Of a DNA stretch of 64,000 nt, positions 45,821 to 63,453 are shown piece after piece. The notes under the pieces were generated by a model, which saw only the letters and a list, made by a program, of their open reading frames with translations, did not search any database and was not told the DNA's origin. Source of the DNA: Aureliella helgolandensis (lineage in GTDB: Bacteria; Planctomycetota; Planctomycetia; Pirellulales; Pirellulaceae). The stretch covers positions 4,526,001 to 4,590,000 of the forward strand of contig NZ_CP036298.1 of assembly GCF_007752135.1 (NCBI RefSeq), written 5' to 3'. The translations under genes and the position numbers were made by a program. How positions within the stretch are numbered: the first letter of the stretch is position 1; each line of letters opens with the position of its first letter.

Positions 45821-47818
45821 TTACCTCCCCAACCTCCGGCGGCGGACTTTCAAGGTTAACGCAACACAGGTTCCGTGATTCGCTTGGCTCTCAACGCGAA
45901 CCTGGGCAGCTAATAGTCTAGCCCGTCGCGCTAAGGAAGGGGGCACCGCAAGCTCGTCTCCTGTAATTCCGCTGCCATTGTCGCGGATGGTCAACCGAAT
46001 TTGCTCCCGATCGGCGATCAACTGTGTGTGGAATTCGGTAGCGTCACTGTGACGGCTGATATTCACAAGGCATTCTTGGTAGAAGAACAGTAGATCAGCA
46101 CGGTCCGTGGGCGTTAGCCGACTCAAATGCTCCTCACCTTCGAACAACATCTCGTGTTGCAGGTCGGCCATAATCCGCTTTGAGGTGCGCAGCATCTCTT
46201 CCGTAAGATTTCCATACAGATCCTGGGTCGCTAGAGCACGCGTGCAGGATCGCGCCGCATCGCTCGTCCTATCGGTTAAGTCGCGTAAGCGTTGCAAGAT
46301 CAACTTCATCTTCTCAGGGGAACCGATCGACGCCCGGGCATGATCCCCCAGCAAGCCTATTGCGTGCAGGTTCCCACCCAACTCATCGTGAAGGTCGGCG
46401 GCCAGCCGTTCCCGAATTTCGGTAGCTTGTCGCATCCGTAGCAAGCGTTCCGCCAAAATAGTAAAACCAATGCCCACGGCCAGCAGTACCGTTAACCAAG
46501 TCATGACCGTCAATTGCGATTTCTGCTTTGCGTAGAGCCTTTGGAGTGCTGCGGTCACCCTTGGGCGTTCAACTTCTAGCTCGTGCCGCAATGCCAGCTC
46601 GTTGAGCCAGGATCGGACGGGCAGGATGCTACCATGGAAATTGCGTCCGTCGGTCAACGCAGAGATTTCACGCTCGGTTTGAAAGTCCGCACTCACGGGT
46701 CGCCCCAAAGCAACGTTGATCCCTTGTGAAAACACTTCCATCTCTGCAAAGCCGAACCGTGGACCTGGGCGGTGATTTTCCACACCTACCAGGTACGGAT
46801 CTTGGACGGTCAATTTTACATAGCGACACTCCGCTTCTGGAGTACGCCGCATCAGGATCGGCCCAGTATCAAAGATGGACTCCTTGCGATAGCTCACTAA
46901 GGGAACCGCATCGCTGAAATCCTCGCGCAAGGCGCCTTCGATTACGAACCGATCAGGGATTCCAAAGTCATTGGGAGCAGATTGGGGAATGTTGTCACTC
47001 AACTCGATCGAATGCAGGTGGATTTCGTCGACTGTATGACTGGCTCCAAGATCAATTGTGATTGAGGCTTGTTCGATGTCGGTCGCCGCCAGCCAAGCCA
47101 CACTGTGTTTACTGCTGGAAGCTTCCATCAGGTAAGGCACGAAACCGTCGACGACAAAACGGTCCTGCCACGGCCCGACCGACCGACTTGGAGCCGGAGA
47201 CAAGGAACGCACCGTTTGTCCCAGCCCTATGCAATCTTGGTGGCGAAAAACCATGATCTCAGCAATTTCGAGTGCATACAATCCATCGAAGGCGCGCTGT
47301 GATAAGACCGACGCGTCCAACCGGATCCACGACGCCGTGGTGTTGGGACAATCGATTACGACTGGCGCAATACGGGGCAGCAGCTCGTCTCTCGGACCAA
47401 AACTCGCAAGCGTCGCCCCCGTTTCCCTGCCACATCCTGCCACCACTTCGAACGCGACCGGAAAGCACTGGGCATGAACGCCTTGCTTCGAATTGCTGCC
47501 GATGGATGGGACCAGCACGATTTGGTCGAACACGACGTTGCCGCCGAAGTCGATACATAGCCATTCGCGATTGTAGGGATCGCCATGCGAGCTGGAGCGT
47601 GAGCTGACCGAACCAATGCCCCGGCGCATATTGAAAGCGGCAAGCCTGTCGAGCTGTGCATTGATCTCATCGAGCCGATTCTCTAACTCGGAGATCGTCC
47701 AGTCGCTCAGCTTCAGTGACAGCTGCGAGCTACGCGTACCGCTCTCCGCTCCCTCGACGGAGGTAGCAATGGCAATCAGCGTAAATCCGAGAAGGGGAAT
47801 CCAGTGCGACATAACCAC
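45821..47818 (-). CDS. Membrane histidine kinase with extracellular discoidin (F5/8 type C)-like domains
   Basis: A 665-residue sensor. After a signal peptide come two discoidin-like jelly rolls (about 60-190 and 220-370; WLCIDFGGNVVFDQIVLVPS and ITIDLGASHTVDEIHLHSIEL). A coiled region and one transmembrane helix (about 440-460) follow. The kinase is of the HisKA_3 class: LAADLHDELGGNLHAIG holds the phospho-His, FYQECLVNISRHSDA the N box, RDNGSGI the G box. Such outer domains bind carbohydrates in other proteins, so this may sense polysaccharide breakdown products. ATG at 47818 or two codons later. Confidence 0.85.
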   Translation of the reverse strand: MVMSHWIPLLGFTLIAIATSVEGAESGTRSSQLSLKLSDWTISELENRLDEINAQLDRLAAFNMRRGIGSVSSRSSSHGDPYNREWLCIDFGGNVVFDQIVLVPSIGSNSKQGVHAQCFPVAFEVVAGCGRETGATLASFGPRDELLPRIAPVVIDCPNTTASWIRLDASVLSQRAFDGLYALEIAEIMVFRHQDCIGLGQTVRSLSPAPSRSVGPWQDRFVVDGFVPYLMEASSSKHSVAWLAATDIEQASITIDLGASHTVDEIHLHSIELSDNIPQSAPNDFGIPDRFVIEGALREDFSDAVPLVSYRKESIFDTGPILMRRTPEAECRYVKLTVQDPYLVGVENHRPGPRFGFAEMEVFSQGINVALGRPVSADFQTEREISALTDGRNFHGSILPVRSWLNELALRHELEVERPRVTAALQRLYAKQKSQLTVMTWLTVLLAVGIGFTILAERLLRMRQATEIRERLAADLHDELGGNLHAIGLLGDHARASIGSPEKMKLILQRLRDLTDRTSDAARSCTRALATQDLYGNLTEEMLRTSKRIMADLQHEMLFEGEEHLSRLTPTDRADLLFFYQECLVNISRHSDATEFHTQLIADREQIRLTIRDNGSGITGDELAVPPSLARRARLLAAQVRVESQANHGTCVALTLKVRRRRLGR

Positions 47819-49988: not shown

Positions 49989-51362
49989 CTATTCGATGCT
50001 GTTGAGATATTTCTCGAGCATCGTGTAGCCATCTTCTCCCACTTTGTTTCCGTCGCCCATATCGCTTGGATCAAGTCCATGCAGCGTTTCCCATTGATCT
50101 GGGATACCGTCATGGTCGGTATCCTCCGAGGCAGGCATACTGTTGAGTTCCGGCCAGCCGCCGACATCGTTTTGCGAGTCAATGATTCCCGTAAGCTTTG
50201 CGGGGTCGGCTACGGTCTTCATGGTTTCATAGACACCTTCATAGGTTGCAGTGCCATCGCGAGCTTCTTGGACGATGCGAGCATCCACGGCATCTCGTTT
50301 CGGTAGCGTTGCTCCGGCGTCGCTGAGAACGGAACTGAAGGCATCTTGGGCAGTCTGCTGGTGGATCGGCATGGCGTCCCAGGCTTCAGCCAACTTGACA
50401 AAGTTGCCACCGCGTACACCGCTCCAATTGTCGGCCGTGACTTCAGGACTGCCTTCGATGAAGTTTTCGGCGACATACCATTGCCCCTTATCGTCTGCAC
50501 CACGGGCAGATGGATCCGCAAGCTCCGACCTGCGTGCCGGGTCGGTTGCCGGTCCCGGCTTGTAGTAATTGGCGACCATGTTGATGTTGGACAACTTAGA
50601 TTGGTCAAAGCCCTTCTGTACTGCTTCCGCTCCATAAGCACTGCGGTAGCCCCAGTTATACACGACGTTATTGCGATAGTCGGTATTACCACAGCCGGAA
50701 GCGAAACGCGGGTTACGGCTGGAGTGATGGGCAATCAGGTTGTGGTGGTAGGTACTGTTGTTCGATCCCCAGATGCCTCCAAATCCATGCGTGCTTTTGC
50801 TGTGGTTCGAGTTGAACATGCTCTCGGTGATCATGCACCATTGCACGGTGATGTTTTCACAGTGGTAGATTGACATTGTCTCGTCAACACTCCAACTGGC
50901 TGACACATGGTCTAGAATCAGATTTTTCACATATCTGGCAGAGATCGCGTCTGCATCTTTGCCAGATTCATCCCCAAATCGGACACGGATATATCGGACG
51001 ATCACTTCATCGGCGCTGATCATTAGGGGGTACCCCCTCAGGCAGATCCCGTCGCCTGGCGCTGTTTGCCCAGCGATGGTGATGTTCGGGTTCCTGATCC
51101 TGATATCACTCTTCAGTTCGATGGTGCCAGAAACTCGGAAGACAACGGTTCGTGGTCCCTCGGCATCCACCGCAGCCCTCAAACTGCCAGCTCCGGAATC
51201 GTCCAGGTTCGTCACTTCATAGACTCGGCCGCCTCGGCCTCCCACCGTGTGCTTACCGTATCCTTCCGCAGTCGGGAATGCTAACGGGGCTTGGGCCAAG
51301 CTGATAGCAGGGTAGATAAGCAATCCGATCAGGCTCAACGTCCTGCAAACCGCGTAGTGCAT
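49989..51362 (-). CDS. Secreted pectate lyase-like protein (PL1-type parallel beta-helix)
   Basis: A 457-residue exported protein. Signal peptide to about residue 24, then FPTAEGYGKHTVGGRGGRVYEVTNL, GTIELKSDIRIRNPNITIAGQ and KNLILDHVSASWSVDETMS, all typical of PL1 pectate lyases. WCMITESMFNSNHSKSTHGF and HSSRNPRFASG include catalytic-type His/Arg. The C-terminus has a calcium-binding DTDHDGIPDQWE motif seen in dockerin-like or thrombospondin-type tails. It would cleave polygalacturonate outside the cell after removal of methyl esters by the neighbouring esterase. Confidence 0.85.
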   Translation of the reverse strand: MHYAVCRTLSLIGLLIYPAISLAQAPLAFPTAEGYGKHTVGGRGGRVYEVTNLDDSGAGSLRAAVDAEGPRTVVFRVSGTIELKSDIRIRNPNITIAGQTAPGDGICLRGYPLMISADEVIVRYIRVRFGDESGKDADAISARYVKNLILDHVSASWSVDETMSIYHCENITVQWCMITESMFNSNHSKSTHGFGGIWGSNNSTYHHNLIAHHSSRNPRFASGCGNTDYRNNVVYNWGYRSAYGAEAVQKGFDQSKLSNINMVANYYKPGPATDPARRSELADPSARGADDKGQWYVAENFIEGSPEVTADNWSGVRGGNFVKLAEAWDAMPIHQQTAQDAFSSVLSDAGATLPKRDAVDARIVQEARDGTATYEGVYETMKTVADPAKLTGIIDSQNDVGGWPELNSMPASEDTDHDGIPDQWETLHGLDPSDMGDGNKVGEDGYTMLEKYLNSIE

Positions 51363-51452
51363 GACAGGCTCTCTTTCTTGTAAGGTGAATGAATTCCAAG
51401 TGTTCGTGGCTGATGCAGCTGAATATCATCTCGGGCCAGCCAGCTCCCGCTG

Positions 51453-53870
51453 CTATTCAATCTCCACCACCACGCGTTGATACCTTGTGAGTTGAGGAGT
51501 TCCTGTATCCGCCACTTCACAGATCACGTGTAGGGTTTGGCCTGGAACGCAAGCGGTGGGGACAATCAACATCGCGTCCTGTGTCCTGGCATTTTGAATT
51601 TCGACGGTATGGTCAACCGTTCCGGCTTCTCGATACTGCCACCATCGATATTCCAAATCGTCTCCATCGGGATCCCACGATAGTCGTGCACTCAGCTTCA
51701 CGACTTCTCCCGGTTGAACTTTTAGATTCAGCGCGTTGACTAGGCTTACAACAGGCGGATGATTCGCTTCTTCAAAGGACTTGACGCACCAGTCGGCACG
51801 CGACGCAAAATCGTTTTGCATCGCAGCGTTCCAACGCCAGATGGGTTTCAAATAGTCCGTCAGCAGTTGGTCGTTGGGAATGTCCTGGCGCAGGCGTTCT
51901 CGGCCCCAAGCCGAATTTCCGTACCATCTACCCCCAGGATACTCGTAAGCGGGATCGGCCACAGGATCGAGCCAAGTGTTGTTGTGCACCTTGACGTAGC
52001 GTCCCCCCCATCCACCCCAACCAGGCGACTCCATACTCCGCAACCCGGTCGGAATCGTATGCAGGAACGCAGGTGAGTCACCTTCGGATCGAAAGTCCCC
52101 CGCCGCGAATCCCTTGTCTCCCTGCTCATGGGCCGGATACAGTGCACACAGCGGCCCGTGGTTCTCCAGGATGTTCGGCTTCATCCAGCCTGCCTCCAGA
52201 TACGCTTGCTGTTCTGCCGGCAAGTACTTCTTCCAGTGATAGAAAATCGCGATAAACTGGTCGGAAATGATCGTAGGGATGTCATACTTCCCCCACTGAG
52301 AACGGATGTAGGTTTGATAGGTCGAATCCTGCTCCCAGATAAAGAAGAAGCGAATTTTGTGAGCAACCTCGGCCATCTTTTCAGGATGCTCTTCCTCAAT
52401 CGTGCGAAGGGCGCGGGCGATCGTGTTCGTACCGCCCCATGCTTGAATCCAGATGGGACGGTCATCCGATTCATCCAACAGAACCTTCACAATATGTTGC
52501 GAGCCTGGAGTTATTATGTCCATCTCGCCTTCTGCCGTCACATTGCCAACGAACGTTCGCGACTGCAAAAATTCTGCGGTCGGATAACGGGAGTCGTGCG
52601 TGAGCAAGTTGGGATAAACGGCTGCATAGGCCGTTAAATACGGCTGCACCCAATCGTCACCGGGCCATTTGTGTCCATGCCAGTGGTACTGGGAGCTCGA
52701 CGTGACAATCCCTTCGATATCCCACTCATTGGCGTACAGCAAGAACCGCACCATGGAACATTGGTCATCAATTTCACCATCGCTGGTGACTAGGACACGG
52801 GACTTCTGCAGCAACGCCGTACCGGTCGCCACGTAGAGCTCCGAAACGTCGGGGTTCCAGTCTCCGTCGAGATGCGCGGCAGTGGTGCTATCGGCCTTAA
52901 AAATATTCCCCTTGGTGTACTGGCTCGCTTCCTCTTCGGTTAACTGCCGCGTCCATGGCAGGCGTTTGTTTGGTTGGCTTCCAGGACCACGATTGCTGTA
53001 TTCGGCATAGAAGGCGGTTTGATGATTGTCTCTTCCGCGCCACGGCGACCACCCCGTCGCGACAACGTGTGGGCCAATTTCGCAATTCAAATAGACGACC
53101 CGGGCTGCGTTGCCCCATGGTCGGCCCAGCGTCGCTTGGGAAACCTCTTCGTCAGGATGTTTCTTGATGGTGCAGTTCTGGAACACGTAGCCAAACTTAT
53201 TGACATGTTTGCCTTCTTTCAATTTTTGGCTGTGTGCAGTGATGTGCGAATCACGGCGGTTTACGATCGTGCAATCCTCGAACAACGCGATTCCATCTCC
53301 GTAGATAAAATCGGTTGTACCTTCAATAATGCACTCCTGATGGTATGAGCGCAGATTGCGACCGGTGTAGTAGGTATCCTGGAATCCCATGATTCGGCAG
53401 CGGTTAAATACCGCTCGATCTGCGTCGACTCGCAAGGCCGCAGCTTGCCCGCCAGCGATCCCAGTTCGACTGTCGATCGTATTCTGAAACGTTAGATTCT
53501 GGGCATAGAAGTCGTCGGCCAGAATTCTGGTGCTGGCGTAATCAGAAGTACGGCCGGCGTAGTCGTCAAAGGTTAGAATCGTGTTCTTGTACGACTCGCC
53601 TACCAGTGACAGATTCTTTGCTGCCGAGGGAACACGAAGCTTTTCTTTGTAGATTCCAGGCTTGATGAAAATCACCGTCCGCGACGGACTATTTTCCGGC
53701 ACAGCATCAATCGCATCTTGGACGTTCAGAAAGTCGCCACTTCCATCCATGGCCACCACCAACTGCTCGGCAAATGCAGGGGAGAGCAAGACCAGCCCCT
53801 GCAGCGCGACGAACGCGAGTCCCGCAAGCAAGTTCTTTAGGTTGAAGCACAGCATATCCCTTGACCTCAT
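51453..53870 (-). CDS. Pectinesterase (CE8) fused to DUF1593/Sde182-type hydrolase
   Basis: An 805-residue exported fusion. The first half (about 35-330) is a pectin methylesterase: GGQAAALRV and GFQDTYYTGR (catalytic Gln/Asp), GTTDFIYGDG (Asp) and LGRPWG (Arg-Trp). The second half (about 360-805) is DUF1593: LVTSDGEIDDQCSMVRFLLYANE, WIQAWGGTNTIARAL, and a C-terminal Ig-like part (SWDPDGDDLEYRWWQ). The start was set at 53870, where a signal peptide fits; ATG 53855 and the longer frame to 53936 are alternatives. Gene order and domain match suggest concerted attack on pectin, with the DUF1593 part removing a second group. Confidence 0.9.
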   Translation of the reverse strand: MRSRDMLCFNLKNLLAGLAFVALQGLVLLSPAFAEQLVVAMDGSGDFLNVQDAIDAVPENSPSRTVIFIKPGIYKEKLRVPSAAKNLSLVGESYKNTILTFDDYAGRTSDYASTRILADDFYAQNLTFQNTIDSRTGIAGGQAAALRVDADRAVFNRCRIMGFQDTYYTGRNLRSYHQECIIEGTTDFIYGDGIALFEDCTIVNRRDSHITAHSQKLKEGKHVNKFGYVFQNCTIKKHPDEEVSQATLGRPWGNAARVVYLNCEIGPHVVATGWSPWRGRDNHQTAFYAEYSNRGPGSQPNKRLPWTRQLTEEEASQYTKGNIFKADSTTAAHLDGDWNPDVSELYVATGTALLQKSRVLVTSDGEIDDQCSMVRFLLYANEWDIEGIVTSSSQYHWHGHKWPGDDWVQPYLTAYAAVYPNLLTHDSRYPTAEFLQSRTFVGNVTAEGEMDIITPGSQHIVKVLLDESDDRPIWIQAWGGTNTIARALRTIEEEHPEKMAEVAHKIRFFFIWEQDSTYQTYIRSQWGKYDIPTIISDQFIAIFYHWKKYLPAEQQAYLEAGWMKPNILENHGPLCALYPAHEQGDKGFAAGDFRSEGDSPAFLHTIPTGLRSMESPGWGGWGGRYVKVHNNTWLDPVADPAYEYPGGRWYGNSAWGRERLRQDIPNDQLLTDYLKPIWRWNAAMQNDFASRADWCVKSFEEANHPPVVSLVNALNLKVQPGEVVKLSARLSWDPDGDDLEYRWWQYREAGTVDHTVEIQNARTQDAMLIVPTACVPGQTLHVICEVADTGTPQLTRYQRVVVEIE

Positions 53871-54157
53871 GATTAAGCGGCTAGTGGCTACATTCATAAA
53901 CGCTCGTCGAGAATCCGCTGGCGTAGCTCGGTGCACTCACCAGCCACTAACGCAGACATCCTCAATCCGATACTCGCATAGCTGCCATGGCAATGCGTTC
54001 CCAATCCAATTCCCTGCAGATTGCAGCGAACTCATACCATTCAATGCAAATCCACTGCGGGTGTACAACACACCGTTTGAGCACCGTTCGTTTCGCGTTC
54101 GTGGCTAGAATTCCGCACCGAACGCCTATCGACTCGCACTCAAAACCGTGCACCGGT

Positions 54158-55546
54158 TCACTCAATTGGCTCAAAGATAATTCTGCGATAGCTGGTGAGA
54201 TTGGGTACACCATCGTCGGTAACTTCACAGATCACGTGAAAGCTTTCGCCAGCTGATTCCGGAGGCACGCTGACCGTCGCTACCTTTGAGTCACTGCCTT
54301 TAATATCGACGGTGGAATCAAATGTCCCCGCTGCCGACAACACCCACCACTTAAACCTCAACGTGTCCCCATCGGGGTCCGACGATTTCGATGCATCCAA
54401 CGTAACTGACGTTCCCTGTTGGGGCTTCTTGGTCAAAATTTTGAGTTCTTGGTTGTCGTCAATTGCAACCAACGGATTTCGATTGCCGGTTCCGGCGTTG
54501 GCCCAGTCCATGCGTGCGGCAAAGTTGTTGAAGGTAGCCGGATAGAAGTGAGTTTCTAGCGCGTTGCAGGCAGCCTTGGTTTCGCCCGCGTGGTTCGTAT
54601 AGCAACGGGTTTCACCGTCTTCGCTTAGGCCCCAGGCCGAATAGCCACCCCAGCCGCCGTGAGTCGGAACGCTGGGATCGTTCATTCCCTTCTGCATGAG
54701 ATGGAGAAACGCGGGCGTGTCCCCTTCGACACCGTATTTGTATTTCGGATAAACCTTGCCCAAGTTACCGTGCCCCTGGATGTGCGTTTCATATTCAGGC
54801 CAATTCTTCCTGCCGGTCCCGTTCTGGAACTTCCAGGCGCATTCGTCCCAAATGAAGAAAAGATCCTTTTCGAACTCGCGGCGCAGCCATTGATGGGCAC
54901 TGTCCGAGTAGGGAGTTCTTTGCTCGCGATCTTGATCGGTAATCGTATACACGCGGAGTTTATGCAGAAACGTCTTCAGCTCCTCAGCGCTGCGATCTTG
55001 CTGTACTCGCCAAACAGCTTGAGCCAGGGTGTTGCCGCCGCCCCAGACCGTGATCCATAGTGGTCGACTGTCATCTTCATCTGCCAATTGAATAATCAAC
55101 TCGCTACCGGGTGAATCATTACCTTCGCCCACATGTTCCCCACCCCGTTTTTTGCTGCCAAACACGGTGCGACTCCGCAAGTACTCTGGGCTTGGCCAGT
55201 AGCCGATGTCTTGGCGTGACTCGTCCTGCATATGTACGGTTTGGCTAGACCTCTTTTGCAAATTTGCCAGATCCTTTTCGTACGCGTTGACCGCCACATG
55301 GATCAGGTCCATGAAGTCATCACGCGTTTCATTGAGGCTCCAGCCAGTGGTGAATACGAGTCCCTCAATCTCTAACAAGTCCCCGTGTACCATCAGGCGC
55401 ACCAGAGACTCGCTATCGTCGGTTTCCCACGTAGAAACGTCGGTCAGTACTACCATTCGCGGCTTGGATTCTTCCGCACGCGATGCATCAACGACGGAAA
55501 CGGTTAGCAGCAAAATTGTCGCCAGAAAAGCGAATATGCTCCGCAT
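54158..55546 (-). CDS. DUF1593/Sde182 family secreted nucleoside-hydrolase-like protein
   Basis: A 462-residue exported protein: signal peptide, nucleoside-hydrolase-like domain (VVLTDVSTWETDDSESLVRL, WITVWGGGNTLAQAVWRV), and a C-terminal PKD/Ig-like domain (SSDPDGDTLRFKWW, FHVICEVTDDG). ATG 55546 is preferred over 55567 because GGAGAG lies 4 bases upstream of it. It follows the next DUF1593 gene by about 23 bases. Members of this family are described as cellulose-binding in Saccharophagus (Sde182), but their reaction is unproven. Confidence 0.9.
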   Translation of the reverse strand: MRSIFAFLATILLLTVSVVDASRAEESKPRMVVLTDVSTWETDDSESLVRLMVHGDLLEIEGLVFTTGWSLNETRDDFMDLIHVAVNAYEKDLANLQKRSSQTVHMQDESRQDIGYWPSPEYLRSRTVFGSKKRGGEHVGEGNDSPGSELIIQLADEDDSRPLWITVWGGGNTLAQAVWRVQQDRSAEELKTFLHKLRVYTITDQDREQRTPYSDSAHQWLRREFEKDLFFIWDECAWKFQNGTGRKNWPEYETHIQGHGNLGKVYPKYKYGVEGDTPAFLHLMQKGMNDPSVPTHGGWGGYSAWGLSEDGETRCYTNHAGETKAACNALETHFYPATFNNFAARMDWANAGTGNRNPLVAIDDNQELKILTKKPQQGTSVTLDASKSSDPDGDTLRFKWWVLSAAGTFDSTVDIKGSDSKVATVSVPPESAGESFHVICEVTDDGVPNLTSYRRIIFEPIE

Positions 55547-55569
55547 TGGTCTCTCCGAATAGTTCATGG

Positions 55570-56964
55570 TTACTCAATGTTGAAAAGTACGTGTTGGTAA
55601 CCAACAAGGGCGGGTGAGCCATTGTCGGTAACCTCAAGGATGAGATGAATTTGCTGACCAGGCTGATTGGGCACGACGAAACTCGCCTGGTCGATGGAAT
55701 CGCTGGATGAAATCTCCACTTCCGGATCAGCCGAGCCGTTCGTGGATTCTTGCCACCACTGACAACTAAGAGAGTCGCCATCGGGATCCGTCGCTGCACC
55801 TTCCAGCTTGATGCGTTCGCCCGGCTTGACCTGACGGGTGGGGGAACCGATCACATCGACCAGCGGCGCATGATTCGCATCGCGGAACTCGTGCACGCAC
55901 CAGTCCATCCGGGCGGCGAAGTCGTTGTCGAACGATGTGCTCCAACGCCTGACGGTATCCGCTCCATGCGGACTATCGGTCCAGTGGTTACTCCCCGGGC
56001 TCACTGGAACAAATCGACCTCCCCATGAGGCTTCACTGGGTGCATCTGGATTGTTTAAGCCGTGCATAGCGCTCACCAATATCAAATAGGATGGTGAATC
56101 GCCTTCCTTGATGCCAGGCTTGGTCCCCATGCCCATGGTGGGATAAATCGCACCAAGCACCCCATGCTCGCGCCGCACATTTGCATTCAGCCAAGTCAAA
56201 TCGGAAGAGCCAAAGATGCCAGTCCAGGTATTCTTAGCTGCGATAACGAACAGCTTGGGAAACGTGTCGAGAAGCCATTGGCCCGAGCCGTCTTGCAGGG
56301 TTATTAGATAGACACGAGCCTTGGAGACAAGCAGGTCAGCTTCTGCTGGAGAGTGCGTTTCCTTGATTTCCCAGAGGGCTTGTGCCAAATCACAAGAACC
56401 TCCCCATACGCAAAACCACACGGGCCGCGCATCCCGTTCTTCTAAGATCTCAACGATCTTCTCCGAGGCTTCGCTATCCCTGCCTTCGCCAATGATTTGA
56501 GCCGCTGGCTTCCCATAGCTACCTGACGCCCCCTGCCATGTAATCGAGCGCAAGTACTCCGCTGTAGGAAAACGAGGGTCATGCTTCTGCAAGTTTCCCT
56601 GGACATCCTCGTAGAGATCCAAGATGTCGAGCAAATGCTGCTTGGTGGCGATATTCGCAAAGGTTGCAGAGGATGCAACGAGACCTTCAATCTCAAACTC
56701 GTTGGCATACAACAAAAAACGGACCATCGACTGAATATCATCCGGATCGCTGCGTTTTCTCGGCGGACCGGAGCCGATTTGGACATCAAGAGGCGGAAAG
56801 TCGGTCAAAATCACCACGCGCCGCACGGCAGCTTCAGCCGCGTGACGCGCTACGTTTGACGACTCCTGAGCCGATAGCTCACCGGCGACAGCGGTGATAA
56901 ACACAGCAACCACCAGTACCACAAGACCGCTACCTCTTGGCGAAATTTGGGAGAACTTTTCCAC
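55570..56964 (-). CDS. DUF1593/Sde182 family secreted protein (third paralogue)
   Basis: A 464-residue relative of the two preceding proteins, with the same layout: signal peptide, VVILTDFPPLDVQ then DDIQSMVRFLLYANEFEIEGL, WFCVWGGSCDLAQALWEI, and a C-terminal TDPDGDSLSCQWWQ and ILEVTDNGSP module. The three copies are clearly diverged from one another (LLYANE and similar blocks conserved). It stands 263 bases downstream of the ABC transporter permease. Confidence 0.9.
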   Translation of the reverse strand: MEKFSQISPRGSGLVVLVVAVFITAVAGELSAQESSNVARHAAEAAVRRVVILTDFPPLDVQIGSGPPRKRSDPDDIQSMVRFLLYANEFEIEGLVASSATFANIATKQHLLDILDLYEDVQGNLQKHDPRFPTAEYLRSITWQGASGSYGKPAAQIIGEGRDSEASEKIVEILEERDARPVWFCVWGGSCDLAQALWEIKETHSPAEADLLVSKARVYLITLQDGSGQWLLDTFPKLFVIAAKNTWTGIFGSSDLTWLNANVRREHGVLGAIYPTMGMGTKPGIKEGDSPSYLILVSAMHGLNNPDAPSEASWGGRFVPVSPGSNHWTDSPHGADTVRRWSTSFDNDFAARMDWCVHEFRDANHAPLVDVIGSPTRQVKPGERIKLEGAATDPDGDSLSCQWWQESTNGSADPEVEISSSDSIDQASFVVPNQPGQQIHLILEVTDNGSPALVGYQHVLFNIE

Positions 56965-57227
56965 TGCGTTTTTGATTCCTCTAGTGAAGCTCGAATCTCG
57001 GATATCGACTCAAAGACATCTGGTACTGCTCGACGAAATGTCGGGGCGTAATAATGGGGAATGCATTGTGGGGTGCTGCCGAATCGACCACCCATTCTGT
57101 AACGGTGTTAGCCAATGTCAGCGTTGCAATTCGACTTACCGAAATCGTGGAAGTTTGCCTATTCAGTTTGAGGCCGGCAGCGTGTTGCTCGAGTTTTTTC
57201 CGAGGAAGCGAGACAGGCCTGTTTGGA

Positions 57228-58205
57228 TCAATCGTTCGACTCTCGCATGCGATCGATTGCCACCGCAACCAAAATCACGCTCCCCTTGACGACTTGTTGC
57301 CAGAACGGCGAGACATTGAGCAGCACCAACCCGCTATTCAGCACACCAATGATGAGGCAGCCAATGACGGTGCCAAAAATCGTTCCACGACCACCAGAAA
57401 GCGATGTGCCGCCAATAACCACGGCGGCGATGCTATCGAGCTCGTATCCCATTCCGGCATTGGGTTGCGCCGAATCCAAGCGTGAGGTCATGATCAATCC
57501 GGCAACTGCCGACAGCGCACCGGCAAGCATATAGACAATGACCTTAATGCGATTCACGTTCAGCCCGGACAGCCTGGCGGTTTGTTCATTTCCACCCACC
57601 GCATAGATGTAGCGTCCCACGCGCGTCTTCTTGGTAATCAAGACGAAAGTGGCAACCAGAGTACCCGCAATCCATACTGGCGCTGGAACTCCCAGGACCG
57701 ACCGTGTTCCCAGAATAGCTAGACCTTCCCCCAAACCGGTAATCGGAAAACCTTTGGTCCACAGCATCGTCAGACCACGAGCAATACTGAGCATACCGAG
57801 CGTGGCAACAAAAGGAGGAATTTTTAAGCGGGTTATCATCTGTCCATTGAACCACCCCAGGAACATGCCCACCATCAATCCGGCCAAGATGGCTCCCCAG
57901 GTGGTAAATTGCACTTCCACGCCCAACATGGGTATGGGAACCGGAGCTTTGATCAATCCGGCAGTGATCGCACCAGCAAATGCCAGCACCGATCCCACGG
58001 ACAAATCGATTCCACCGGACAAGATCACCATGGTCATGCCGATCGACAGGCAGACGTTCACCGAGATCTGCCTCATGATGTTCCAGCCATTCGCCGAAGT
58101 CAGAAACCGGTCCGACAGCAGGCTCATCGCCGTGATCATCAGCACCAACACAAGTAGCGATTGAAAGCGGCTCGCATGTTGCCAAAACTTCGATTGATCA
58201 TTCAT
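57228..58205 (-). CDS. Ribose-type sugar ABC transporter permease
   Basis: A 325-residue RbsC-type permease with about nine membrane segments and the family motifs SVGSVLAFAGAITAGL and ALSAVAGLIMTSRLDSAQP, plus IAAVVIGGTSLSGGRGTI. It overlaps the ATPase stop by 8 bases. With the other genes of the cluster it would import a pentose or similar sugar. Confidence 0.93.
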   Translation of the reverse strand: MNDQSKFWQHASRFQSLLVLVLMITAMSLLSDRFLTSANGWNIMRQISVNVCLSIGMTMVILSGGIDLSVGSVLAFAGAITAGLIKAPVPIPMLGVEVQFTTWGAILAGLMVGMFLGWFNGQMITRLKIPPFVATLGMLSIARGLTMLWTKGFPITGLGEGLAILGTRSVLGVPAPVWIAGTLVATFVLITKKTRVGRYIYAVGGNEQTARLSGLNVNRIKVIVYMLAGALSAVAGLIMTSRLDSAQPNAGMGYELDSIAAVVIGGTSLSGGRGTIFGTVIGCLIIGVLNSGLVLLNVSPFWQQVVKGSVILVAVAIDRMRESND

Positions 58206-59748
58206 CGTTCGTCGTTGAGCCTCCAGGTACTGCGGCTCGCATCAACATTTCCTCATTAGCTGCAGATCGTTTGAATTCACCCGTCTTCCGACCTTCACAC
58301 ATTACCATGACTCGATCGGCAATGCCCAGCAGTTCTGGCAGTTCAGAAGAGACGACAATGATCGCCATTCCATCCTGTTTTAACCGATCAATCAGGGCAT
58401 AAATCTCGCGTTTGGCGCTGACATCAATGCCACGAGTCGGCTCGTCGAGCATAAGCACGCTTGGCTTCCGCGAAAGCACTTTGGAGAGCACGACCTTTTG
58501 CTGATTGCCACCGCTCAGGGCCCCCACACGCTGCGTGGCACTGGGGGTGCGAATCGCAAATTGTTCGACGAACGACTGGGCGTGCTCCCTCTCTCGCTTG
58601 CCGCTCAGCAGCCAGGCCGTCTCCAGATCCGCTAGGTTGGACAAATTGATATTTTGTTCCACGCTCATCCCCAGAATCAATCCTTGGCGTTTGCGATCTT
58701 CCGGCACAAGCCCTAGACCGTTGCGTAGTGCGACCTCAGGAGAATCAATAGCACAGGGTACACCGTCGATGGTTAAAGCCCCGGTGGTGCCAGCGGGGTG
58801 TAGACCGAAGATGGCTTCCAACAATTCGGTGCGGCCAGCGCCCATCAGTCCAAAAATCCCCAATACTTCGCCGCCACACACCCCAAGCGAAACGCGATCG
58901 ACGAGCGGTCGCCGCATATCCTTGCGGATCAGCGAAAGTGACTCGACGCGCAGGCGTTCGCCCCCCTGGGACACGGCGGGCGAATGGACATAGAGTTCAT
59001 CGAGTTGTCGCCCAACCATCAACCTTACAATCGAGTCTCGATCGGCCTCTGCGGTCTGGACAGTATCGACCAGCTGCCCATCACGAAGAACCGTTATGCG
59101 GTCGCTAATACTCAAGAGCTCGTCGAGTTTGTGGGACACGTAGACGATAGAAACGCCCGAGTCACGCAGCGAACGAATCAAGCGGAACAGAGATTCAACT
59201 TCCTGGTCGCTGATCGCCGATGTCGGCTCGTCCATGAAAATCACACGCGCCTTTGAATTAATCGCCTTGGCTATTTCGACCACCTGTTGCTGTCCCACGC
59301 GCAGGCGATGCACCTCTGTGCGAGGATCGATCGTGTCATCTAGCGCGGACAACAGATTTTTGCAGTGCCGGTTCTGATCCAGCGAGCGAATCAGTCCTGC
59401 CTTGGAGACCAATTCGCGGCCGAGAAAAACGTTCTCAGCCACGGTAAGGTACGGAACGAGGTTGAGTTCTTGGTGCACCAATGCAATACCGCAGTCCATC
59501 GCTGCACGTGGATTGGCAAAGTCAACCGGCTCACCGTCGAGCCGAAGTTCCCCCGCATCGGGCTGGGCGGCTCCAGCTAAGATATGCATCAGCGTCGATT
59601 TGCCGGCACCGTTTTCACCGATCAGGCCATGGATCTCTCCAGCCCGCACCGAGAAGTCGACTTGGTTCAACGCCAGCACGCCGGGATACCGTTTGACAAT
59701 GCCGGTCCCCGCCAATACGACCTGTTCTGTTGCCGACGGCATTATCAT
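58198..59748 (-). CDS. Sugar ABC transporter ATPase, double cassette (RbsA type)
   Basis: A 516-residue protein with two ABC domains. First: GENGAGKST (Walker A), LRVGQQQVVEIAKAI (signature region), VIFMDEPTSAIS (Walker B). Second: GLMGAGRTELLE (variant Walker A), LSGGNQQKVVLSKVL, VLMLDEPTRGID. The second Walker A variant is normal for RbsA/MglA. It overlaps DUF2291 by 4 bases and the permease by 8. Confidence 0.95.
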   Translation of the reverse strand: MIMPSATEQVVLAGTGIVKRYPGVLALNQVDFSVRAGEIHGLIGENGAGKSTLMHILAGAAQPDAGELRLDGEPVDFANPRAAMDCGIALVHQELNLVPYLTVAENVFLGRELVSKAGLIRSLDQNRHCKNLLSALDDTIDPRTEVHRLRVGQQQVVEIAKAINSKARVIFMDEPTSAISDQEVESLFRLIRSLRDSGVSIVYVSHKLDELLSISDRITVLRDGQLVDTVQTAEADRDSIVRLMVGRQLDELYVHSPAVSQGGERLRVESLSLIRKDMRRPLVDRVSLGVCGGEVLGIFGLMGAGRTELLEAIFGLHPAGTTGALTIDGVPCAIDSPEVALRNGLGLVPEDRKRQGLILGMSVEQNINLSNLADLETAWLLSGKREREHAQSFVEQFAIRTPSATQRVGALSGGNQQKVVLSKVLSRKPSVLMLDEPTRGIDVSAKREIYALIDRLKQDGMAIIVVSSELPELLGIADRVMVMCEGRKTGEFKRSAANEEMLMRAAVPGGSTTNDE

Positions 59749-60458
59749 GGCGGGGTTCCCCCACGCGATTCATCGGCTGATGCAGCGACACTCTCTTGCT
59801 GGCTAGCAACTTCCAATCGTATAGGAATCAAGCACAGGGGATCCAGGTCGGACTCGCCGCCAATCCTAGCGCAACCAACGAAGTCGACTTGAACACCAGG
59901 TTTCAACAGCGGACGGTTCGGTGCAATGATTTCGCTTTCGACCTTAAGATTCAGGTCTGAAGAGATCGCATTGAATTCTTGTGAATTTGCAAACTCGCTG
60001 GCCTTAACCCCCACCGCTTCACGCACGGTGTTGTCAACGACCCCCCCCAATTCAACACAGACTCGGCTTGAACAATCCGGCACGGTTAGCACAACGCGAT
60101 CTTTCTCCACCATGGCGACCACTCCTTGGCCACGGATACAGAAATACCAGGCTCCGCCCAGCCCAGCCTGCTGACCGAATCGACTTCGGGCTTGGGACGC
60201 GTCGGCCGCAAAGGCATCCCACAGCTGCTTGATGTCCGTACTGGCATCGCCGGTACGTAGCGGTCCATCCCACAGAAGACGCACATAGTCAGCCGGATCA
60301 GCTACCCTTGGGCGGCCCGCCGCCGCAGGCGAACCACCCGCGTCTGACGCACTGCCTCCCAGCGGTTGCACATGAAATAGTGGCATGAACCAGCAAGCGA
60401 TGCCACCCAACATTAGCAGCACTCCGGACACGATTAACTGCTTGCGTGACACATTCAC
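59745..60458 (-). CDS. DUF2291 family protein
   Basis: A 237-residue protein with one N-terminal membrane segment (about 9-30) and a periplasmic or outside-facing domain ([48 protein letters not shown]). DUF2291 genes repeatedly occur within ribose-type ABC operons. It lies between the binding protein and ATPase with 4-base overlaps on both sides and may be an accessory component of the importer. Confidence 0.85.
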
Positions 60459-61420
60459 TCCCTTTTGCCGAACCCAGCGAACTGGTCGACGTTTTCAGGG
60501 GTAACCAGTTCAACGTTGACCGGTATCTTCTGGTCAAAATCCCGCTTGCCGTTGGCCAAATACTCATGTGCGTATTCGGCGGAGGTCCGAGCCATTACCT
60601 TGGGATATTGCATCACCGTTGCGGCGATTTTGCCTTCGCTGATCGCAGTCACAACATCCTCAGACCCATCGTACCCAAACACCCGAACTTGCTCCTCGAT
60701 CCCGGCGGCCAGCAGGGCTTGGTAAGCTCCCATTGCCATAGCATCATTTCCGCAGAAGACCGCGTTGATGTCGTCATGCGATTGGAGCACCGATTCCATC
60801 ACCTCCAAAGCTTTGTTGCGGTCAAAGTCCGCGCTTTGTTGGGCCACCATCTCGAGCCCGGGATACCGATCGACCACGCTGTGGAAGCCTTTCGAGCGGT
60901 TCCAGGTGTTGTTGTCTCCGACCAACCCCAGCAGCTCGACGTACTTCCCCTGCTCACCGATATCTTGGACAAAGTACTTGCCAAGTTCAACGCAGCCCGA
61001 ATAGTTGTCCGACAAAAGCTGAGCTGTCGCAGCGTCTGTCGAATTAATCTCGCGGTCGATGCAGAACACAGGGAGTCCCGCTTCCTGGGCGCGTTTGACG
61101 TTACCAATCGACCCATCGGCATCGGTCGGATTAAACACGATTGCTGCGTATCCGGCAGCAATTGCATTGTCAAAATGAGCTGATTCCTTAGCGGTGTCAT
61201 TCTGCGAATCGAACAGCGTGGCTTCGTACCCCAGTTCCGCAGCGCGATCGCGAGCCGTTTCACCCAGCACGACAAACCAGGGATTGTTGAGTGTCGAAAT
61301 AATCACAGCTATTCTTGGCTTCTCCGATTTGCTGACAGGACTGCTGCAACCAATCATTGCAATGAGCAGTAGCCAAGCCAACGGTGAGATACATCGAAGG
61401 ATGGATCGATTTTGATTCAT
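60455..61420 (-). CDS. Ribose-type sugar ABC substrate-binding lipoprotein
   Basis: A 321-residue periplasmic binding protein of the RbsB type. The lipobox is [31 protein letters not shown] and [11 protein letters not shown] are typical. The closed sugar pocket is suggested by the Asp/Asn/Arg spread in [11 protein letters not shown] and [14 protein letters not shown]. It starts the transporter set, 44 bases after the mutarotase gene. Confidence 0.94.
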
Positions 61421-61464
61421 GGGAGTCGTTTCGTTCGCAGAAATAGGATCGCAAGATTTAGGGC

Positions 61465-61872
61465 TTAAAACGTGACGCCAGACTTGAGAATGACGTTTGC
61501 ATACGGACTACATTCGCCGGTACGCACAATCACCTCGCTCTCGCGCGTAAGCCGCTTGAACTCGTCGTGAGGTACTTCGGTGACCAACGGCTCCATTGCG
61601 TGGCTTCGGAAAACCTCCATCATCGTTTTAAAGACCTCTGGATTATTCTCATGAATCTCACGGGCCAGCACAATCTCCTCGACCATGAACTCACTCAATA
61701 TTACGTCCAGCGTTCGCACGAAAGATGGAAATCCTCGTTCGATTGCAAGATCGATCCGCTTCACTCCGGCAGGTATCGGCAGCCCGGCATCGCACACGGT
61801 CATACCTGCCGTATGCCCCAGGCGGCTGATCTCATAGCTCAATTCACTGTTGAGCAATCTGGTACGTTTCAT
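61465..61872 (-). CDS. RbsD/FucU family sugar mutarotase (D-ribose pyranase type)
   Basis: A 135-residue protein: [33 protein letters not shown], split here as [17 protein letters not shown] and [14 protein letters not shown], with [12 protein letters not shown] at the C-terminus. It interconverts pyranose anomers or ring forms after sugar import. It lies directly upstream of the transporter genes. Confidence 0.92.
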
Positions 61873-61905
61873 ATTTCACCTCGCCGCCACCACTCAAGAT
61901 GCCAT

Positions 61906-63075
61906 TCACGCCTTGTGGGGCACGACTTCGATTTTGACACACTCGTCAAAGTTCGTGACAGTACCGAAACCGTCGACGAGTTCCTCAAGCCCCATGCGAT
62001 GAGTGATCATTGATGGAAAATCGTAGCGATTGGCTTGCTGCTGAAGGATCTTTAACACAGGTCTCCAATTGGTCCCACAGTGGAAGACGGAATGGATGTG
62101 CAAGTTCTTCGAAGTAATGTGTCGCATGACATCCAAGGGCACATGCTTGCCCAGATCGACCCAGTTGCCCACTTCGATAATTGTTCCGCCCTTTCGCACC
62201 ATCTGCAGCGCCTCGAGAAAGGCCTCGGGTTCACCCGCGGATTCGATCACCAGGTCTGGTCCTACTCCCTCGGTCAACTCCTTCGCCCGCTCAAGGCGCT
62301 CTTCTACGCCTACTTTGGATGCGTTGATCGTGACGTCAGCATACAGACTCTTGGCCGTCTTGAGTCGGAGATCGGACAAGTCAGTGGCGATCGTCAATCC
62401 GGCTCCCTGAATCCTCGCCATGACTCCGTGCAGCAACCCCAACGGGCCATTGCCCAGCACGGCGACAGACATCCCGGGACCGAAGCCTTCGTTCACTGGC
62501 GCAAACGGCACGGAAGCTCTCGCAAGCGAATGGTAGGCTACCGCCATCTCCTCCACGAAAACAGCCACGTCCGTCGCCATCTCTTCCGGCACCTTGAAGA
62601 GATGCGTCCTGGGGCGAATGTACATATATTCCGCGAACCCGCCGCGCAGGAAGGGAGGCGTATCGGCATTCGGATGCAGTCCATACGCCTGTATCTGGTT
62701 TTCGCAGGTGGTGTTGTTGTAGTGATTTCGACAATACCAGCACTCGCCGCAGTTCACCTCAACAGCAATCGCCACCCGATCACCAGGGACGAGCAATTGC
62801 CCGTCGTAGTCCATCGTCCGCGCGGCGGTGTCCCCAATCTCGACAATCGTCCCAATGACTTCATGCCCACCGACGTAGGGATAGATCGACTTCCCACGCA
62901 ACTCCGTAGCTTCCCCCTTGAAGATATGCCGGTCGGTCCCGCAGATTCCGGCCATATCGACCTTGAGGATCGCAGAGTCGTGATCCATCGTCGGATAGGG
63001 ATATGTTCGCATCTCCGTTTTGCCGGGCGCGGTCATCGCGACGGCCTTGACTTTGGCGGGACTTGAGTGAGCCAT
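61906..63075 (-). CDS. Zinc-dependent alcohol dehydrogenase (MDR)
   Basis: A 389-residue dehydrogenase. GICGTDRHIFKGE (catalytic zinc Cys), GGHEVIGTI, and the structural zinc site CGECWYCRNHYNNTTC are clear; VAVLGNGPLGLLHGVMA is the NAD(P) motif. The ATG at 63075 has GGAGA 5 bases upstream and is preferred over 63090. As the first gene of the run it may oxidise the imported sugar or its alcohol. Confidence 0.92.
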   Translation of the reverse strand: MAHSSPAKVKAVAMTAPGKTEMRTYPYPTMDHDSAILKVDMAGICGTDRHIFKGEATELRGKSIYPYVGGHEVIGTIVEIGDTAARTMDYDGQLLVPGDRVAIAVEVNCGECWYCRNHYNNTTCENQIQAYGLHPNADTPPFLRGGFAEYMYIRPRTHLFKVPEEMATDVAVFVEEMAVAYHSLARASVPFAPVNEGFGPGMSVAVLGNGPLGLLHGVMARIQGAGLTIATDLSDLRLKTAKSLYADVTINASKVGVEERLERAKELTEGVGPDLVIESAGEPEAFLEALQMVRKGGTIIEVGNWVDLGKHVPLDVMRHITSKNLHIHSVFHCGTNWRPVLKILQQQANRYDFPSMITHRMGLEELVDGFGTVTNFDECVKIEVVPHKA

Positions 63076-63453
63076 CGATCTCTCCTGCATCCAAAAATAT
63101 AGTTGGGGTCCGTTGCTTCGGGCTCGGAATGAACCCTACAACAATGTCGACAACGGTATTCTCCTACAATGAAATCGAGAAGTCTCCCGCGAAATCAGCA
63201 TAAACTCACGGAATACTAAGGCGGGGTCTTGCCCAGCAGACCATGGCACAAGACACGCTGACGGACCTGTCGTATCGTTCGACGGCGGGCGGCGAGTTGG
63301 TTCGAAATCGTCAGAATTTAAATCCTAGAGATTGCTCGTCCTACTTGCGGCCATCGAGATCCAACAACTGGTAAAATCGTGGATCCAGTCTCCCAACGAA
63401 CGGCTAGCCATGCAACATTTCCTTTCAGTTCTCGAACTCCAGTTGGACCGAAT
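63076..63453. other. Divergent intergenic region
   Basis: A 378-base stretch between the minus-strand sugar operon and the last, plus-strand gene. It should hold the promoter of the operon. I do not see an operator palindrome with certainty. Confidence 0.45.

Follow-up and report, generated by a model that had tools for sequence, protein, structure and literature searches.

Which sugar does a ribose-type importer take up when its genes stand beside those of pectin-degrading enzymes, and do the DUF1593 proteins encoded alongside release it? The question is raised by ten minus-strand genes (49989–63090) of the planctomycete Aureliella helgolandensis. They lie in the window analysed here, a stretch of 64,000 nucleotides (positions 4526001–4590000 of the 8.44-Mb single-contig genome), and form the left, importer half of a pectin-utilisation cluster that spans roughly 30–40 kb and runs beyond the right edge of the window. 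A sequence-only reading of this DNA had suggested that the DUF1593 proteins liberate a ribose-like pentose, adding that no such link was established; as far as gene linkage goes, that caveat can be relaxed, as we found that the coupling of DUF1593 with RbsABC and DUF2291 is real and extends far beyond this genome. We give a little under an even chance to the reading that the importer half serves the use of pectin bearing a furanose pentose, with the DUF1593 proteins acting as secreted Ca2+-dependent furanosidases and the freed pentose being imported.

Linkage of DUF1593 with the importer across genomes

Contigs were scanned with the DUF1593 'd' subfamily, and the best 80 of 275 confirmed loci were taken. 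Genes were our own picks of open reading frames (ORFs), and families were Louvain clusters of BLAST matches; Pfam names come from scans of ten cluster representatives rather than of members, and the importer, DUF1593 and PL1-type clusters were named by BLAST to window proteins. Near DUF1593, the importer families occurred in 31 (RbsA-type), 29 (RbsB), 29 (RbsC) and 28 (DUF2291) of the 80 loci, the catabolic families in 27 (transketolase N half), 25 (C half), 24 (FGGY kinase) and 22 (isomerase-like), the lyase families in 30 (PL1-type) and 28 (PF09492-type), and GH140-type genes in 18. When the 29 loci with less than 8 kb on one side were excluded, 51 full-flank loci were left, flanked by 8 kb or more on each side. 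Of these, 32 carried importer and/or catabolic genes (hereafter module loci), a lyase was present in 35 and a GH140-type gene in 15, and seven had none of these. The module loci (21 with importer and catabolic set, five with the importer only and six with the catabolic set only) came from six phyla by record title, namely Planctomycetota, Verrucomicrobiota, Bacteroidota, Pseudomonadota, Bacillota and Acidobacteriota, and in 18 of them DUF1593 directly adjoins an importer or catabolic gene on the same strand, at 500 bp or less.

Moreover, DUF2291 was found in 33 of 45 genomes, always as a single copy, and lay within 20 kb of DUF1593 in 28 of the 33, where placement at random would give 0.42. 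The genomes had been selected by one DUF1593 subfamily and are related to each other, hence not independent, so that the tail probability of this comparison is not to be read at face value; the distances are upper bounds. In an unselected survey of 77 genomes of the order, DUF2291 occurred in five, all within the 21 carrying DUF1593, four of the five belonging to one family. The cultured species Bythopirellula polymerisocia has the importer next to DUF1593. A looser association is indicated by the other five of the 33 DUF2291 genes, one lying 95 kb off and four having no DUF1593 on the same contig among the matches listed, and by four genomes of Lacipirellulaceae in the order survey, in which the importer is separated from the closest DUF1593 listed by 95 kb or more, or lies on a different contig. 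In two Paenibacillus loci, DUF1593 is accompanied by the isomerase, transketolase and FGGY genes, but neither an RbsBAC nor a DUF2291 cluster was found nearby, and therefore another importer may serve there.

Gene content and layout of the cluster

All ten minus-strand genes of the sequence-only reading are present where it had placed them, and the Pfam domains it named were found in nine of the ten.

61906–63090, minus: Zn-dependent dehydrogenase (ADH_N + ADH_zinc_N; Pfam), 394 aa
61465–61872, minus: RbsD, D-ribose pyranase type (Pfam and NCBIfam NF008761)
60455–61420, minus: RbsB-type sugar-binding lipoprotein (Pfam and solved-structure comparison)
59745–60458, minus: DUF2291 (PF10054; Pfam)
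58198–59748, minus: RbsA/AraG/XylG-type ATPase of a sugar ATP-binding cassette importer (Pfam and NCBIfam)
57228–58205, minus: RbsC-type permease (Pfam and NCBIfam)
55570–56964, minus: DUF1593 / Sde182_NH-like + Sde0182_C, paralogue a (Pfam)
54158–55567, minus: DUF1593 / Sde182_NH-like + Sde0182_C, paralogue b, structure modelled (Pfam and model)
51453–53936, minus: pectinesterase (residues 59–347) fused to Sde182_NH-like (380–647) and Sde0182_C (746–826) (Pfam)
49989–51362, minus: pectate-lyase-like protein (NCBIfam PelZ match below cut-off)
Right of the window, same cluster: three further DUF1593 genes, among them paralogue d at genome positions 4599010–4600482, as well as GH127, an AraC regulator, DUF6807 and GH9
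Right of the window: two more pectate-lyase-like genes, named by eye, with no Pfam match

Pectin enzymes, secreted as judged by eye, thus do stand beside a ribose-type importer, as had been proposed. The call of a pectate lyase holds as a likeness to PelZ at 165.9 bits, far under the cut-off of 840, and a Pfam search of this protein at 0.001 gave no match. The three DUF1593 paralogues were correctly counted within 49989–63075; the cluster is larger, with six in 30 kb and nine in the genome, and the dehydrogenase frame begins at 63090, position 63075 being an internal ATG in the same frame. Homologues of this dehydrogenase in Stieleria, in Rhodopirellula and in two genus mates share 82–86% identity with it, and its best NCBIfam match, IolM, reached 159 bits against a cut-off of 450.

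From the dehydrogenase downstream, the genes are spaced by gaps of 33 and 44 bp, overlaps of 4, 4 and 8 bp, and gaps of 263, 2, 221 and 90 bp. Because the 263-bp gap divides them, we distinguish a tight transporter block from a separate enzyme block; one operon for all ten genes was not accepted in view of the 263- and 221-bp gaps. A terminator scan (21 sites versus 12.0 in shuffles, sd 3.2) does not decide the operon question. To the left of the cluster, 45821–47818 encodes a protein that by eye resembles a sensor histidine kinase with an extracytoplasmic N-terminal half, which could be the cluster's sensor.

Fold, conserved residues and fusions of DUF1593

DUF1593 is PF07632, currently named 'Cellulose-binding Sde182, nucleoside hydrolase-like domain' (Sde182_NH-like). 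The three window regions score 228–262 bits, exceeding the curated cut-off of 26.8, and Sde0182_C occurs in each; six of the nine genomic matches fall inside 4577996–4607648, together with GH127. A match of the ninth-family type at genome positions 5486955–5487452 (L012, 6923–7663) covers profile positions 91–268 only and is possibly a truncated copy.

The model of the 54158–55567 protein, the one window protein modelled, has a nucleoside-hydrolase-like fold followed by the C-terminal Sde0182_C domain. Compared with nucleoside hydrolases (PF01156, e.g., E. coli RihA, 3G5I), DUF1593 is 8–14% identical and adds this C-terminal β-sandwich domain. Across 67 DUF1593 rows, 19 columns are invariant, including D43, D50, D51 and D283. 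The first three align with the Ca2+ Asp motif of nucleoside hydrolases (a weak match, E 0.021, 9 sequences), with the first Asp of DxD replaced; D283 as the last Ca2+ ligand is our reading of the motif, outside the aligned stretch. If that Asp is equivalent, the invariant Gly282 before it stands where nucleoside hydrolases have His (group I) or Trp (group II).

DUF1593 also occurs fused to other enzymes. Beyond the window, 13 long DUF1593 proteins were collected; of the 10 that were scanned, six carry another family, two are tandem DUF1593 and two have no other match at 1e-6. The partners are pectinesterase (in the window, and as a piece in L073), a PF09492 lyase (L073), GH127 (L070), a GDSL esterase (L113), DUF6807 (L066) and DUF5060 (L119), although fusions in metagenome contigs could be mimicked by assembly errors. 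Because it is fused to pectin enzymes, DUF1593 probably acts on the same polymer.

Enzymatic activity is the point at which the family's solved member speaks against a furanosidase: Sde_0182 of Saccharophagus degradans (PDB 2YHG; PF07632 + PF21027) is reported in the accessible part of PMC8910321 to be inactive on nucleosides, and we found no activity in the literature for any PF07632/DUF1593 protein, though structure 2YHG dates from 2011. The same part of that paper describes extra carbohydrate-binding domains in Sde_0182, whereas the window copies are stand-alone or fused to pectinesterase. It also suggests a binding role, and DUF1593 might accordingly be a module that has lost catalysis and merely binds furanose, keeping pectin in place for the lyases and esterases next to it or fused to it; for such a module, fusions to esterase, lyase and GH127 would be equally expected. 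We regard this as unlikely, since the 19 invariant columns with their four Asp residues exceed the needs of a binding module, as do the mostly stand-alone copies, secreted by eye and numbering 2–5 per locus in 39 of the 51 full-flank loci.

Paralogues within one locus fall in separate clades, and this multiplicity, together with GH127 as neighbour or fusion partner, could mean that their substrates differ among the furanosides of pectin (arabinofuranose, aceric acid, apiose) and that the importer takes up only one of the products. The Ca2+ of nucleoside hydrolases holds a cis-2,3-diol, which arabinofuranose does not have, and neither the importer nor the catabolic genes linked to DUF1593 belong to the arabinose type; such a division of labour seems quite improbable to us.

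Resemblance of the neighbouring genes to D-apiose catabolism

In many lineages, the set of isomerase, FGGY kinase and split transketolase beside DUF1593 resembles, as judged from sequence, D-apiose catabolism. The reference sequence for the D-apiose cluster in the accessible part of PMC13001218 is that of E. coli SE15, and growth on D-apiose is reported there for Escherichia strains with the cluster and for P. carotovorum, K-12 having failed to grow. The SE15 cluster contains two short-chain dehydrogenases/reductases, a permease, an ATPase, DUF2291, a 'D-ribose' binding protein, an FGGY kinase, a regulator, AptA and AptB. Permease, ATPase, DUF2291 and an RbsB-type binding protein stand together in the window as well, which thus holds an RbsBAC-type importer with DUF2291 as in D-apiose clusters; the cross-phylum DUF1593 loci share the FGGY kinase and split transketolase too. 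Indeed, all 28 transketolase N halves of the loci match AptA (39–54% identity) and all 25 C halves match AptB (33–43%). Unlike the SE15 cluster, the window has RbsD and a Zn-dependent dehydrogenase, no AplK or AptAB alongside and another binding pocket; the SE15 stretch is without DUF1593. Because the neighbours in other lineages resemble D-apiose catabolism and apiose is a pectin sugar, we rate apiose no lower than ribose as a candidate.

GH140-type neighbours match the solved structures 3KZS/5MSY and 8T9W ('Apiosidase'), and BT1012 of this family is a β-apiosidase acting on rhamnogalacturonan II (RG-II), according to the accessible part of PMC7939467. The GH140 family (PF13204) is unrelated to DUF1593 and, although its neighbour in the 18 loci given above, has no member in the window cluster.

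In four Lacipirellulaceae genomes, the importer operon includes RuBisCO-like and DUF1537-type genes. There (L046–L049), these stand with isomerase, split transketolase and FGGY kinase genes, and the operon is preceded by a large secreted hydrolase in which, by eye, GH43-like and GH29-like parts are joined.

Several observations weigh against apiose. The share of loci with a GH140-type gene is not clearly higher for module loci (11 of 32) than for the rest (4 of 19). No GH140 match passes the cut-off within the cluster, the sole match in the genome lying outside it at 5033114 and being borderline (25.9 bits, or 26.6 with neighbours; cut-off 26.5). The one Lacipirellulaceae locus scanned, L047, has OiaX (530 bits) and OiaK (388 bits) as best NCBIfam matches, both under cut-offs of 700. 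The SE15 DUF2291 protein is matched at 1e-5 by only two of 28 locus DUF2291 proteins. The FGGY kinases of the loci resemble glycerol kinases: one representative exceeds the cut-off of the GlpK subfamily model PRK00047 (542.8 versus 498 bits), and the kinase tree does not place them together with AplK. In that tree, the L086 kinase is the sole partner of SE15 AplK, and GlpK already falls within the following node (support 0.064). AplK, AptA and AptB, which the screen of PMC13001218 looks for within ten genes, were all absent beside the window genes. A search of the genome itself gave no RuBisCO-like protein and no AptB-like half gene, the best AptB-type match (32%) lying inside a 631-aa frame, with AptA and isomerase not searched there.

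The FGGY kinase was rejected as proof of an apulose kinase, the closest solved structures of its representative being glycerol kinases; the best AplK-type match in the genome adjoins a frame that by eye is GlpD-like. The isomerase representative scores 26.6 bits to PF02952, below the cut-off of 29.3; its best NCBIfam match, sulfoquinovose isomerase, is far below the cut-off, and a search of solved structures at 1e-5 gave no relative. The region of the GH140 match, genome 5033114–5033590 (L146, 1090–3477), encodes a DUF5060/apiosidase-like/Collagen_bind_2 protein, a relative of which in L119 is fused to DUF1593.

Binding pocket, RbsD and ribokinase

A second set of features points to D-ribose. 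The window binding protein shares 62% identity with the ribose-binding protein of Thermotoga, the closest solved binding protein, and keeps 10 of 10 ribose contacts, and RbsD passes the equivalog cut-off (NF008761, 172.3 bits versus 93). Two genus mates, G079 (361.6 bits versus a cut-off of 299.65) and G086 (alike by eye), have a ribokinase gene upstream of the corresponding genes, and in G086 four DUF1593 matches are located just upstream. The SE15 pocket (NYYNRRGNDL) differs from that of the window, the two binding proteins being 33% identical. All these count in favour of ribose over apiose. On this basis the branch could import D-ribose, with DUF1593 proteins, on their nucleoside-hydrolase fold, acting as extracellular ribosidases on ribosides or ribose-bearing polymers of plant debris, and the pectin enzymes merely sharing the niche.

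We hold this to be possible but doubtful. Ribose is not a usual sugar of pectin. No ribokinase was found among the ORFs of the window and extended cluster, the nearest homologue elsewhere in the genome being 37% identical; the Zn-dependent dehydrogenase would be superfluous for ribose use, and Sde_0182 is reported to be inactive on nucleosides, as cited above. Moreover, the Thermotoga-type pocket occurs in 31 of 36 binding-protein rows, including loci with apiose-type genes. The window protein reaches 228.9 bits against the cut-off of 337 for the RbsB equivalog NF007936. Of 15 genomes of the genus, four gave an RbsD match: this one, G079, G086 and a fourth that is weak (E 6e-4). By eye, 5IBQ/4RY0 have the pocket letters NFFDRRWNDQ, as do L086 and L112; PDB 5IBQ, probably a D-apiose complex, did not appear in the structure search.

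In the ribose operon of T. maritima (RbsR regulon), the importer, ribokinase and transketolase share one operon, and the accessible part of PMC3750489 describes neither pectin enzymes nor DUF1593 there; DUF2291 is present in the T. maritima genome. Elsewhere in our genome (5912374–5914268, L186), a PF01156 nucleoside-hydrolase-like match (57 bits) directly precedes a PfkB kinase, 37% identical to the G079 ribokinase, a possible separate pair for ribose or nucleoside salvage.

The ribose-like pentose proposed by the sequence-only reading thus fits the binding protein. RbsD, the Thermotoga-type pocket and the genus-mate ribokinase favour ribose, and the cross-phylum pattern favours apiose.

Proposed mechanism

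The furanosidase reading may be put as follows. Outside the cytoplasm, the pectinesterase and pectate-lyase-like enzymes, whose secretion we predict by eye, would open the homogalacturonan backbone. The DUF1593 proteins would then remove, in a Ca2+-dependent manner, a pentofuranose with a cis-2,3-diol, family-wide most likely β-D-apiofuranose. The RbsB-type lipoprotein would capture the freed pentose, and RbsAC with DUF2291 would import it. Use of the imported pentose could then fall, across numerous other lineages, to an isomerase, an FGGY kinase and a split transketolase, or to OiaK/OiaX-like enzymes; in the branch of the window, RbsD and the dehydrogenase may start its use instead, and ribokinase may follow, as in the two genus mates.

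More tentatively, and with appreciably less confidence, DUF1593 may be a new family of secreted Ca2+-dependent apiofuranosidases on the nucleoside-hydrolase fold, the hallmark of an unnamed apiogalacturonan/RG-II system in at least six phyla that travels with RbsBAC-DUF2291. The window would then be an RbsD/Zn-dehydrogenase variant (with ribokinase in the genus mates) replacing the isomerase-kinase-transketolase set.

Implications for the DUF1593 family

The term 'DUF1593' was not found in a literature search with poor coverage of subscription journals, and Sde182, Sde0182 and PF07632 returned only a review and a genome paper that merely matched locus tags. Searches on nucleoside hydrolase with pectin, apiose, DUF2291, GH140 and OiaX gave nothing tying DUF1593 to apiose or an importer among the matches listed, subscription journals again being thinly covered. 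The linkage to apiose- or ribose-type uptake and catabolism and the fusions to pectin enzymes single out PF07632 as a specific candidate for the release of apiose, or of some other furanose, from pectin. If this is true, the nucleoside-hydrolase fold would have been recruited for work on polysaccharides, and a DUF1593 gene would mark bacteria able to feed on pectin rich in apiose, duckweed pectin being an example (given in the accessible part of PMC6062639).
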